34,078 nt of DNA, from IMG/VR virus record IMGVR_UViG_3300034682_000389, positions 1 to 34,078 of that record; one strand, 5' to 3'. The position numbers were made by a program, and so were the translations under genes. The stretch comes from a virus. Below, in pieces: positions 21,162 through 24,367 of this stretch; the stretch's first letter is position 1; every line of letters begins with the position of its first letter. The notes below the pieces were generated by a model. The model was not told the origin of the DNA. It searched no databases and worked only from the letters and a program-made list of their open reading frames with translations.

Positions 21162-21173
21162 CGCCCCTTGTTT
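21150..21173 (+). terminator. Intrinsic terminator after ogr
   Basis: GGGGCGC, loop AATA, GCGCCCC, then TTGTTT. The stem includes the last codons and the stop of ogr. It separates the plus-strand late genes from the convergent DUF3800 gene. Confidence 0.75.
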
Positions 21174-21991
21174 CATCCGGTCGCTGAGAACCTATCAGCC
21201 AGCAGTTGCAATTTGGCGGGGCTGGCAGGCCCGCCAAATGTGCGAATACTGCTTCGTTTATGAACTTGTTTTAACCGTTCACCGAAGTACTTTTCGAAGA
21301 CGTGAAACCCGGCCTTGGCTTCTGGCTCGCAGGTATAGTGACTCAGCCTGCCATACAGGGCGCATAGCCAGTCAGCACACTGAATCGTCTGATACAGATG
21401 GCTTTCTACTTGCGTCGGTGGTTCGATAAGACAACGTCGTCCGTGCTCACCAAACATCTCGATTGACGCTGTTTCGACTATTTTTTTCCGTTCGGTATGC
21501 TGGTCGATGATGATCATCAACTTGCTGTTATCTGTACAGCACTCTTGATCGAGCCGTTTGATCACCTCTCTCATCACATCGAGATAAAGCTTGGTGGAGT
21601 CCAGTTCCAGCCCTGGTTTCTTTTGCTGCCCGACATAGAAGGCGAAGCCCTCATCGTCTCTGATACGATTCAAGATTCGATTGACTGCTGCTCTGGTTTC
21701 ACGATAGCGGGTGACATTCTTCTCGGTCAGCACTGATGTCCCTTTTTTCTCCCACTTTGCGGGATGAAAGGGTTGCTGATCCGCTACCGCCTTGGCTTGA
21801 GTATTGGCAAGATCAGTACTTAGAAGATGGTTTTTGAGCTGGAAGAAGAAGGAAGAAAACGCCCGTACCTTGTAGTACGGCAACACAAAGCCGCCAATAC
21901 CAAACACTGGATGGGTATGGTGTTTGGGGTGGTCATTACCAAGGTAGGGGCCTGCGTGGCCAAACTCGTCAAGATAGGCGATGTATAGCAA
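21173..21991 (-). CDS. DUF3800 family protein
   Basis: A 272-residue protein of the DUF3800 family. Diagnostic parts are the start YIAYLDEFGHAG, the strand LMIIIDQHTE about residue 170, and CADWLCALYGR near residue 225. The acidic residues at these three places are thought to form an RNase H-like metal site. The TTG at 21991 is preferred because GGAGG lies six to seven bases upstream and the family starts at this strand; the longer frame would begin with a second TTG. Composition is lower in GC than the surrounding late genes. It sits beyond the portal, at the locus where P2 carries accessory exclusion genes such as old and tin, so a superinfection-exclusion or defence role is possible but is inference. 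Confidence 0.72.
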   Translation of the reverse strand: MLYIAYLDEFGHAGPYLGNDHPKHHTHPVFGIGGFVLPYYKVRAFSSFFFQLKNHLLSTDLANTQAKAVADQQPFHPAKWEKKGTSVLTEKNVTRYRETRAAVNRILNRIRDDEGFAFYVGQQKKPGLELDSTKLYLDVMREVIKRLDQECCTDNSKLMIIIDQHTERKKIVETASIEMFGEHGRRCLIEPPTQVESHLYQTIQCADWLCALYGRLSHYTCEPEAKAGFHVFEKYFGERLKQVHKRSSIRTFGGPASPAKLQLLADRFSATG

Positions 21992-22021
21992 TGTTAGCCT
22001 CCATGCTCCAGATACACGAAA

Positions 22022-22044
22022 GCCCAACCACAAAATGGCTGGGC
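22022..22044 (-). terminator. Hairpin between rha and the DUF3800 gene
   Basis: On the minus strand: GCCCAGCCA, loop TTTTG, TGGTTGGGC (one G-U pair), then TTTCGTG. The U-tract is short, so termination may be partial. It would insulate the DUF3800 gene from rha transcription or reduce read-through. Confidence 0.45.
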
Positions 22045-22185
22045 CTCGGAATTAGGGCGTCGCTGTCGCAACGCGCCTGACCGTCAATATACGCAATTTT
22101 TTAATTCTTGCAAGTATACATACGCATCTAATAGCTACTAAGAGCCACCAATAGCCGCAAACCAGTACGCGGTGGGCTGATAGTG

Positions 22186-22776
22186 CTACCCGCGGGTCAG
22201 CCAGTGGCCGTGCAGCTGCATATGGCTGACGATATCGCGGTTGCTGCGTTGGCGGGCGTGGTAGGTGCGCATGTCCTGGCGCAGGTTCTCCAGCTCCTGG
22301 GTGAGGCTCATAAAGCGCGACTCCAGCCAGGCCTCGGCCTGAATGGCTTCCCTGTCTCGCTGGCCCAGCATATGGGCGTAGTTGAGCACGGCCAGGGCAT
22401 CGTCTTGTTGCTTGGCGCTGGGGAGGGCGGCCTGCCGGAGCTGGTCGGCCATCCAGTTGAAGGCGTTGATATAGGCCTCCTTGATGGCGGCGGCCTGTTT
22501 GCCGGTGAAGCCCATCACCAGGAACATAAAGCCATCCTTGGTCATCTCCCATACAGTGGTTTGCTTCGATGCACCTTTCGGCATGGCAACGGTTTGGAAC
22601 GTCTCCGCAAAATTGCGGAGACGAAAATCTGAGCTGCATTCGAGGGCCCGAATCTTCTTCAGCACGTCATCGTGACGCTTACCAAAGACTTCAGCCACCT
22701 TGAGCGAGGTAGTCATGGGCTGGCCGTGGTTCAGGCTGATGATATCGGATGGGGTAAAGCTGGTGATGTGGTGCAT
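22186..22776 (-). CDS. Rha-family phage regulatory protein
   Basis: A 196-residue protein. Residues about 15-100 form the Rha domain: GQPMTTSLKVAEVFGKRHDD, then VLKKIRALE, and TVWEMTKDGFMFLVMGFTG. This N-terminal DNA-binding-type domain is shared with phage antirepressors and with phi80 Rha. The C-terminal half is helical and charged. The chosen start MHHITSFTPSD is preceded by AAGGA. The open frame continues 41 codons further upstream through a leader that is better explained as structured RNA. Because that leader includes a C4-like RNA and its targets, Rha is probably an antirepressor-type regulator made only when the RNA control is lifted. Confidence 0.78.
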   Translation of the reverse strand: MHHITSFTPSDIISLNHGQPMTTSLKVAEVFGKRHDDVLKKIRALECSSDFRLRNFAETFQTVAMPKGASKQTTVWEMTKDGFMFLVMGFTGKQAAAIKEAYINAFNWMADQLRQAALPSAKQQDDALAVLNYAHMLGQRDREAIQAEAWLESRFMSLTQELENLRQDMRTYHARQRSNRDIVSHMQLHGHWLTRG

Positions 22777-22919
22777 GGCTTGATTCCTTGGATTTGATGC
22801 AAGTGAATCGCCACCGAGAGGGACCAAACTCTGCACCGTGCCCTCAATTGTGAGGAGACGGCTGGTGACGAACTGGACGAGGTTGGTCCTACCGGGCATC
22901 CAAGGAAACCGGCCAGCCG
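22777..22919 (-). promoter_or_regulatory. Structured rha leader that can mask the ribosome binding site
   Basis: The leader of rha contains nested inverted repeats. TTCCTTGGAT (minus strand, 22907-22898) is perfectly complementary to ATCCAAGGAA (22793-22784), and the latter contains the AAGGA ribosome binding site of rha. Inside lie GGACCAA/TTGGTCC (22889-22883 with 22827-22821) and a small CCTCA-CAAT-TGAGG-type hairpin (22855-22842). A competing pair, ACGGCTGG (22920-22913) with CCAGCCGT (22865-22858), cannot form together with the nested set. This allows two alternative folds, one hiding the start. Confidence 0.6.
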
Positions 22920-23004
22920 TGAGGCTGCCTCGCCCAGCCCGTCATAACAGAGATTGCGGGTACTACTGGGCCGCACATAAAAAAACACGCGGGCGCGTGT
23001 TGTG
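22912..23004 (-). promoter_or_regulatory. Predicted target sites of the C4-like RNA in the rha leader
   Basis: Three segments of the leader are perfectly complementary to hairpin segments of the cloverleaf RNA: CACAACACG (23004-22996) with CGTGTTGTG in the second hairpin, CTGGGCG (22937-22931) with CGCCCAG in the third, and CGGCTGGC (22919-22912) with GCCAGCCG in the first. The first target lies inside the 5' arm of the terminator hairpin at 22984-23001, so pairing would change whether that hairpin forms. The third overlaps the alternative stem of the leader. This is the arrangement expected of the a/b target regions of C4 RNAs. Confidence 0.6.
22979..23001 (-). terminator. Intrinsic terminator in the rha leader
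   Basis: On the minus strand: AACACGC, loop GCCC, GCGTGTT, then a further run of T (A79-A83 on the plus strand). It stands between the C4-like RNA and rha, so it can act as a conditional attenuator and fix the downstream end of a short transcript. Confidence 0.7.
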
Positions 23005-23030
23005 CGCTTGGAATGCTTGCGGGGGACCAA

Positions 23031-23060
23031 CCCCGGCAGCGGATTTTGCCGCTGCCGGGG
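23031..23060. repeat. Perfect 12-bp inverted repeat
   Basis: CCCCGGCAGCGG at 23031-23042 and CCGCTGCCGGGG at 23049-23060, separated by ATTTTG. It has no T-run, so it is not a terminator by itself. It lies between the cloverleaf RNA and the attenuator hairpin and may be a boundary for RNA processing or protection. Confidence 0.8.
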
Positions 23061-23064
23061 CAGT

Positions 23065-23143
23065 ATGTCGCAAACCCTGGGCGGGTTCAACCATCAGCCA
23101 CAACACGAAGGCGATGGTAGCGGCTGGCAGGCCGCTGCGACAT
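23065..23143 (-). ncRNA. C4-type antisense RNA (cloverleaf), candidate
   Basis: A 79-nt element on the minus strand with four perfect stems. The closing stem is ATGTCGCA/TGCGACAT (23143-23136 with 23072-23065). Inside, in order, are AGCGGC/GCCGCT-type hairpin 23136-23119, ACCATC/GATGGT hairpin 23118-23090 with a 17-nt loop, and AACCC/GGGTT hairpin 23087-23073. This is the size and shape of phage P1 C4 RNA (about 77 nt), which lies upstream of icd-ant in the same transcript and pairs with it. Here segments of all three hairpins match the downstream rha leader. It is not a tRNA: the middle loop is 17 nt and there is no TTCGA-type T loop. The C4 class assignment is by architecture, not by a covariance search. 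Confidence 0.68.
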
Positions 23144-23158
23144 GTTTATCTGGGCCGG

Positions 23159-23187
23159 TTTATACAGGGTCAGTATTGGGACAAGGC
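23159..23187 (-). promoter_or_regulatory. Candidate promoter for the C4-like RNA
   Basis: A TATAAA (minus strand, 23164-23159) lies about 16 bases before the cloverleaf. The best -35-like sequences upstream are GCCTTG at 17-base spacing or TTGTCC at 14, neither ideal. It overlaps the end of the secreted-repeat gene, so the RNA may instead be cut from a longer transcript. Confidence 0.35.
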
Positions 23188-23604
23188 CTGTTCTGCCTCG
23201 ATGTCCTGGTCGGCGCAGGCTTTGACCATTACCCACCCCCCGATCTTCCCCATCCGGTCGATGCAAGATTCCAGGGTCTTCGCGTGCTTTGCGTACATTT
23301 CCTTATTGTCCACGATGGACTGCCGCGCTTCTATGTTCTGGTCTGAGCAGGCTTTTACCATGCTCCAGCCATATTCCTTGGTGGTTCTGACACAGAACTT
23401 GACGATCTTCTCGTGGGGCCGGTAGTTGGCCAGCAGCTGTTCAAAGGCCTCCAGATCCTGGTCCACACAGGCCTTGACCATGGCGGCGCCGTACTGGTTC
23501 ATCTGATCTTTGCAGCGCTCGATGACCGCTGTTTTTTCGGTATCACTGATGGCCATGACGGAGGTGGCCAGCAACAACAGGCTGGCCGCGATAACTCGAT
23601 TCAT
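23170..23604 (-). CDS. Secreted cysteine-rich protein with three MVKAC repeats
   Basis: A 144-residue protein with a clear signal peptide (MNRVIAASLLLLATSVMA). The mature part is built of three repeats of 40-44 residues. Each has a Cys, about 15 residues on the block MVKAC-x-DQ(D/N)(L/I)EA: Cys31/46, Cys71/86 and Cys114/130. The six cysteines suggest three disulphides, one per repeat, in the periplasm or outside. I do not recognise a characterised family, though proteins with this repeat occur in marine and aquatic gammaproteobacteria. A GAGAAC precedes the ATG. As a periplasmic protein in an accessory locus it is a good lysogenic-conversion or envelope-exclusion candidate; that is inference. 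Confidence 0.72.
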   Translation of the reverse strand: MNRVIAASLLLLATSVMAISDTEKTAVIERCKDQMNQYGAAMVKACVDQDLEAFEQLLANYRPHEKIVKFCVRTTKEYGWSMVKACSDQNIEARQSIVDNKEMYAKHAKTLESCIDRMGKIGGWVMVKACADQDIEAEQALSQY

Positions 23605-23865: not shown

Positions 23866-23960
23866 GACCTGACAATTTTATCTGTGACCTGATTGCATAT
23901 CTCGACGTTCGCCGACTAGATTTTTCATATCTGTGAATTTTGACCTGTCAGATCTGACAG
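23866..23960. promoter_or_regulatory. Divergent operator region with perfect 16-bp palindrome
   Basis: CTGTCAGATCTGACAG at 23945-23960 is a perfect palindrome 41 bases before the HTH start. The half-site motif GACCTG recurs at 23866-23871, 23886-23891 and 23942-23947; the first two are 20 bases apart, on the same face of the helix. TAAAAT (minus, near 23881-23876) is a candidate -10 for the small gene. The arrangement suits an autoregulating HTH protein that also controls the opposite transcript. Confidence 0.6.
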
Positions 23961-24001
23961 TCATCACGGCCCCGAGCACGGGCACCTGCTGGAGGCGCCC
24001 C

Positions 24002-24367
24002 ATGAAAAAGAAAATCAACCTCGCCCGGGCCTATGTGGTTCGTGCCAAAGGCATCACTCGCGCCGTGCTGAAACGCCATGGCATGACCAACGCTGCCACA
24101 GGCAAGGTCATCCATGTTGCCCCCGCGACGATTGGCCGCTGGCTTGATGACCAGACTCCCACCTTTTTTGACCTGGAACATGCCGCCGCCATCTGTATCC
24201 ATCTCGGGATCCCTCTCTCTCACCTACTGCCGCCCAGTGACTGGCTGGTCGAATACCATTACAAGACCCACCAGAACCAGCGCAGAAATCAACTGATGGC
24301 CCTGAGCGAGGATGAGATCGATTGGCTGCTGGCGGTTCGCGCCGGAGCGATAGCCTGTTATCGCTGA
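24002..24367 (+). CDS. HTH transcriptional regulator (Cro/CI-like)
   Basis: A 121-residue DNA-binding protein. The start MKKKINLARAYVVRAKGITR has GGAGG seven bases upstream; the open frame extends 23 codons above it through the palindromic operator and is not likely coding. Residues about 17-75 hold a helix-turn-helix (ATGKVIHVAPATIGRWLDDQ) and the xenobiotic-response-type continuation FFDLEHAAAICIHLGIPLSH. The C-terminal part ends in EDEIDWLLAVRAG. It is the only plus-strand gene of the accessory region and is divergent from the small 54-residue gene. Probably a local regulator of this locus rather than the lysogeny repressor. Confidence 0.72.
   Translation: MKKKINLARAYVVRAKGITRAVLKRHGMTNAATGKVIHVAPATIGRWLDDQTPTFFDLEHAAAICIHLGIPLSHLLPPSDWLVEYHYKTHQNQRRNQLMALSEDEIDWLLAVRAGAIACYR

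Follow-up and report, generated by a model that had tools for sequence, protein, structure and literature searches.

C4 and isrK RNAs upstream of rha in a P2-type Aeromonas phage, and a neighbouring cloverleaf that is not the C4 RNA

Introduction

Is the rha gene of a P2-type phage controlled by an antisense RNA of the C4 type and, if so, which of the elements upstream of the gene is that RNA? The question is raised by the minus strand of a viral sequence of 34,078 nt (IMG/VR record IMGVR_UViG_3300034682_000389, analysed over its whole length and referred to below as the window), in which a preliminary description had noticed a 79-nt cloverleaf upstream of rha, complementary at three places to the leader that follows, and had proposed it as a C4-type RNA controlling Rha. 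C4 antisense RNA (RF01695) is cut by RNase P from a longer transcript to about 77 nt. A limited literature search found no paper treating C4 together with Rha.

Results

The search with the Rfam C4 covariance model gave a divided answer. The cloverleaf gave no C4 match, even when the limit was relaxed from the gathering threshold to E = 1, whereas a C4 RNA was detected at 22861-22949 with 74 bits, some 200 bases further downstream (Table 1). This C4 RNA, with a fold z-score of -3.8, is preceded by an isrK RNA that bears a terminator at its 3' end and has C4 and the antirepressor gene downstream; the c4-a1b1 family (RF03163) overlaps isrK at 23016-23068 with 38.2 bits, under its cut-off of 46.7 bits. 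The intrinsic terminator formerly given as 22979-23001 is real, lies at 22984-23001 and is the terminator of isrK. The preliminary description had missed both Rfam RNAs, the sites that C4 really targets and the putative promoter within the cloverleaf. Since isrK and C4 lie between the cloverleaf and rha, the "leader" on which the cloverleaf was thought to act contains the C4 RNA itself, and two of its three proposed targets sit in stems of that RNA.

Table 1. Coordinates of the features of the rha locus in the window
Feature	Position	Strand	Description
DUF3800 protein	21173..21991	-	PF12686; downstream of rha
rha	22186..22776	-	Regulated gene, 196 aa; Pfam PF09669 Phage_pRha, 93.3 bits (cut-off 29.9)
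a2 site ATCCAAGGAA	22784..22793	-	Spans the rha Shine-Dalgarno sequence AAGGA (22785-22789); 10 nt complementary to loop a'
b2 site TTGGTCC	22821..22827	-	In the rha leader; 7 nt complementary to loop b'
C4 antisense RNA	22861..22949	-	Rfam RF01695, 74 bits (cut-off 45), full length (1-87)
C4 loop b' GGACCAACC	22881..22889	-	Complement of b1 over 9 nt and of b2 over 7 nt
C4 loop a' TTCCTTGGAT	22898..22907	-	10-nt perfect complement of a2
isrK RNA	22980..23055	-	a1/b1 decoy-leader segment; Rfam RF01394, 73.6 bits (cut-off 50), full length
isrK intrinsic terminator	22984..23001	-	Stem-loop followed by a T tract; last hairpin of the isrK model
a1 site TCCAAG	23007..23012	-	6 nt complementary to loop a'; weakest of the four sites
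b1 site GGTTGGTCC	23024..23032	-	9 nt complementary to loop b'
Putative isrK/C4/rha promoter	23062..23090	-	-35 TTGAAC (23085-23090), 17-nt spacer, -10 CATACT (23062-23067)
Cloverleaf	23065..23143	-	Not itself C4; shares sequence with the putative promoter and contains a mosaic junction near 23125

The product of the regulated gene is also a member of the Rha-like and anti-repressor families of PHROG. Its reading frame is open upstream to an ATG at 22899, within loop a' of C4 (22186-22899, minus strand), which would give a possible form of 237 aa; the codon matching this ATG is GTG in L002, and no Shine-Dalgarno sequence was seen. The DUF3800 gene likely belongs to the same inserted stretch as rha; phage phiO18P has a counterpart of 94% identity, preceded there by the remnant of a decayed rha. 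The stretch 21169-23169, comprising DUF3800, rha, C4 and isrK, is absent from the relative L112, in which the flanks are 94-97% identical.

Across 34 C4 loci, with 16 distinct b and 23 distinct a regions, the variable a' and b' loops of each C4 RNA were compared with the leader of their own locus and with those of all the others. The mean longest complement was greater within the own locus at each of the four sites, namely b2 (7.24 versus 5.02), b1 (7.59 versus 5.12), a2 (8.18 versus 5.37) and a1 (6.15 versus 5.10), and none of 10,000 shuffles attained the observed mean at any of them, although the loci are related and the shuffles thus overstate their independence. The predicted duplex energies are in the same direction: among 35 C4 RNAs, the C4 loop region of the window itself gave the best duplex with the rha leader (-37.1 kcal/mol), but one foreign C4 reached -36.4 kcal/mol and the cloverleaf, a longer molecule, -35.2 kcal/mol. 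Energy of this kind separates C4 loops from controls poorly, and the argument therefore rests on the loop-target matching. When the 286-nt leader is folded in silico, the middle segment of isrK pairs with the C4 region (z = -4.55), an arrangement resembling silent structure A of Gifsy-1 (PMC4825925).

Given the Rfam families in their standard layout and the covariation of loops with targets, control of Rha by a C4-type antisense RNA in this P2-type phage is well supported, at coordinates other than those first proposed. The original idea is right in substance and mechanism, and wrong in the element and its place. We consider it very likely that promoter, isrK with its terminator, C4, the b2/a2 sites and rha together form an antirepressor operon of the standard C4 type.

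What, then, is the cloverleaf? Its fold, a closing stem with three hairpins, was reproduced, with a folding energy of -39.3 kcal/mol and a z-score of -4.0 for the 91-nt stretch that contains it; this clean fold, together with three perfect complementarities of 7-9 nt, is what speaks for the cloverleaf itself being a C4-type RNA that acts on the leader and the terminator. Its folding energy, however, is unexceptional in this G+C-rich phage, in which 204 of 22,666 windows of 79 nt (about 1%) fold at least as well. All three complementarities are present, pairing CGTGTTGTG (23099-23107) with CACAACACG (22996-23004) over 9 nt, CGCCCAG (23077-23083) with CTGGGCG (22931-22937) over 7 nt, and GCCAGCCG (23121-23128) with CGGCTGGC (22912-22919) over 8 nt, but they are not clearly above chance, 4-12% of controls doing as well. 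The longest match to the same leader was equalled by 115 of 1000 shuffled cloverleaves and 92 of 1000 random 79-nt segments of the window, and the weighted total by 49 and 41 of 1000, respectively; depending on the measure, this corresponds to 4.9-11.5% of shuffles and 4.1-9.2% of random segments. By the refuting conditions named in the preliminary description, as far as sequence comparison reaches, the cloverleaf is rejected: it has no covariance match, and no homologue was found in which compensatory changes could appear. A covariance model of the cloverleaf, built on its single sequence, matched only the window itself in 53 sources (266 kb, including relatives of both flanks), all remaining rows having E = 1.9 or worse. 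Likewise, no exact copy of the cloverleaf core was found in viral contigs, no plasmid record was retrieved for the upstream segment, and neither tRNA nor tmRNA was detected at the cloverleaf.

The position of the cloverleaf also argues against it. All 28 distinct upstream sequences tabulated, that of the window among them, have a -10-like hexamer ending 6-7 nt upstream of the isrK model start and a -35-like hexamer 16-18 nt further upstream; a simple sigma-70 scan returned no promoter match, because this weak promoter fits only 8/12. With a conserved isrK promoter overlapping the 3' third of the cloverleaf, transcription is predicted in silico to start downstream of it, near 23055. On the other side, the flank of the upstream gene is homologous to L115 and L119, both of them without a C4 cassette, as far as 23125, and the homology resumes at 21174; homology to cassette-bearing relatives begins, in the same kind of comparison, at 23073. 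When the 205-nt segment 23056-23260 was compared with 37 genomes of the genus, the upstream part alone matched, again ending at 23125, and L115 has ATAAAAATGTCGCAGCGGCCAGCC at the place of the window's ATAAACATGTCGCAGCGGCCTGCC. Thus, the first 19 nt at the 5' end, the entire 5' closing arm among them, match the flank of a neighbouring gene in cassette-less phages and derive from elsewhere, and the cloverleaf straddles a mosaic junction. With the real C4 RNA and its targets located elsewhere as well, we regard it as extremely improbable that the cloverleaf is a C4 RNA. Its inverted repeats, ATGTCGCA (23136-23143) and TGCGACAT (23065-23072), might instead be operator half-sites for a repressor of the isrK promoter, given that the window has two copies of the 8-mer, found only there, and that a palindrome TTGCGCGATACTGCGC(AA) stands at the same -10 position in relatives. 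Yet 37 of 100 shuffles yield at least two occurrences of the 8-mer, which is within chance, the upstream half-site is also found in L115, where there is no isrK promoter to control, and a by-eye reading of the cI-cox intergenic sequence gave no clear match, so that we hold this function to be very unlikely. The cloverleaf is most likely a coincidence, a by-product of the DNA junction and the G+C-rich promoter sequence.

The C4/isrK locus itself could be a decayed, functionless relic, as exemplified by the decayed version in phiO18P, where DUF3800 adjoins ogr and only a 3' fragment of rha is left before it. In the window, however, C4, isrK, the four pairing sites, the terminator, the ribosome-binding site and the rha frame are all intact and mutually matched, and decay is accordingly a very unlikely description of this copy. 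In phages LPM4, N15, phiKO2 and PhiR46_1, in two Klebsiella phages and in Aeromonas prophage loci found via Rha, isrK and C4 follow each other in the same order, and in most cases the pair precedes rha or another regulator gene; C4 is present in 16 of the 37 genomes of the genus, nearly always accompanied by isrK.

Some Aeromonas prophages, contigs or genomes contain two C4 loci (L088, L014/L018, L019, L121/L137, L131/L139, L133/L140 and L128/L141); the distance between the two, where it was measured, ranges from 326 nt to 14.6 kb. In 7/7 cases the paired loci have different a' and different b' loops, a plain count from fewer than seven independent cases, since G011 and G013 apparently share one C4 pair. 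Differences of this kind fit a need for the two loci to avoid silencing or relieving one another. In Marinobacterium iners (L092), Rfam sRNA-Xcc1 (RF02221, 66.1 bits) was matched at 2847-2932, in front of a rha homologue, and no C4 was found there.

Several other features of the window were recorded. Upstream of the locus, positions 23170-23604 (minus strand) encode a 144-aa protein that begins like a signal peptide and contains the repeat MVKAC.DQ(D/N)(L/I)EA three times in variant form; it has no Pfam or PHROG family, and relatives occur in four viral contigs and one genome (L119). A palindrome, CTGTCAGATCTGACAG, at 23945-23960, beside the start of a repressor-like ORF (23933-24367, plus strand), is a possible operator. 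An Acyltransferase_3 gene (PF01757; 31821-32900, plus strand) between cI and the integrase gene is likely a lysogenic-conversion gene. PADLOC returned no match for Rha, the DUF3800 protein, the 144-aa protein or the acyltransferase.

Discussion

The C4-type antisense RNA very probably blocks the translation of Rha, a mode of control familiar from phages P1 and N15 and from the isrK locus of Gifsy-1, and the arrangement of the parts of the operon suggests how. Transcripts reading past the isrK terminator would carry C4 followed by rha, and C4 would be excised from them, presumably by RNase P as in P1. Pairing of loop a' with a2, over the Shine-Dalgarno sequence of rha, and of loop b' with b2 would then block rha translation, which may be what keeps the prophage silent; the released RNA could, in addition, work in trans against an infecting phage that shares its specificity. 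By analogy with IsrK in Gifsy-1, we infer that the short isrK RNA, with its decoy sites b1 and a1, can lift the C4 block. Once made, Rha might serve, judging from its family, as an antirepressor or regulator directed against the S24-type CI repressor.

With this locus, the known antirepressor operons under C4 control come to include those of P2-type Aeromonas phages that have Rha, and the pairing sites specify the bases to mutate in testing this control. The matched loops across many loci can also serve to test how superinfection immunity depends on C4 specificity. More speculatively, and in our judgement rather less probably than otherwise, the isrK-C4-antirepressor operons of Aeromonas phages may be movable immunity cassettes with exchangeable loop specificities, several of which could be stacked in one host without cross-reaction, the a' and b' loops defining RNA immunity groups independent of CI. 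The locus also carries a caution, in that a four-stem fold and three short complementarities picked out by eye proved to cover a promoter and a recombination junction, with the real RNA 200 bases off.

Among the closest known systems is Aeromonas phage vB_AsaM_LPM4 (Peduoviridae), which shares isrK, C4 and rha with the window, its DNA being 85% identical over 374 nt. Its C4 RNA has the same b' loop and a different a' loop, no cloverleaf stands upstream, and the isrK-C4-rha block is inserted between the tail genes T and U, whereas that of the window adjoins ogr. The immA regions of N15 and phiKO2 contain isrK and C4 in the order seen here, and in phiKO2 they precede annotated icd/antA/antB-like genes; these are linear-plasmid phages with another antirepressor family.

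The isrK-orf45-anrP region of Gifsy-1 (RF01394) resembles the window in its promoter, its isrK with terminator and the antirepressor gene downstream. The decoy/activator logic has been demonstrated experimentally there, activation of the long transcript by IsrK in trans being an experimental result for Gifsy-1 only (PMC4825925). The antirepressor is AnrP in Gifsy-1 and would be Rha in the window phage, in which no antQ gene was seen upstream; instead of a separate conserved upstream ORF, the window has the in-frame extension of rha from 22899.

In phages P1 and P7, for which C4 pairing and RNase P processing have been summarised (PMC5320573; see also PMC8546580), the controlled genes are icd, ant1 and ant2 rather than rha, and the window phage differs further as a P2-type member of the Peduoviridae that encodes an integrase and a CI of the S24 type. 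The likeness to C4/immI of P1/P7 lies in the RNA fold, its length and the two variable loops a' and b', and in the a2/b2 targets, which stand upstream of the antirepressor gene on the same transcript.
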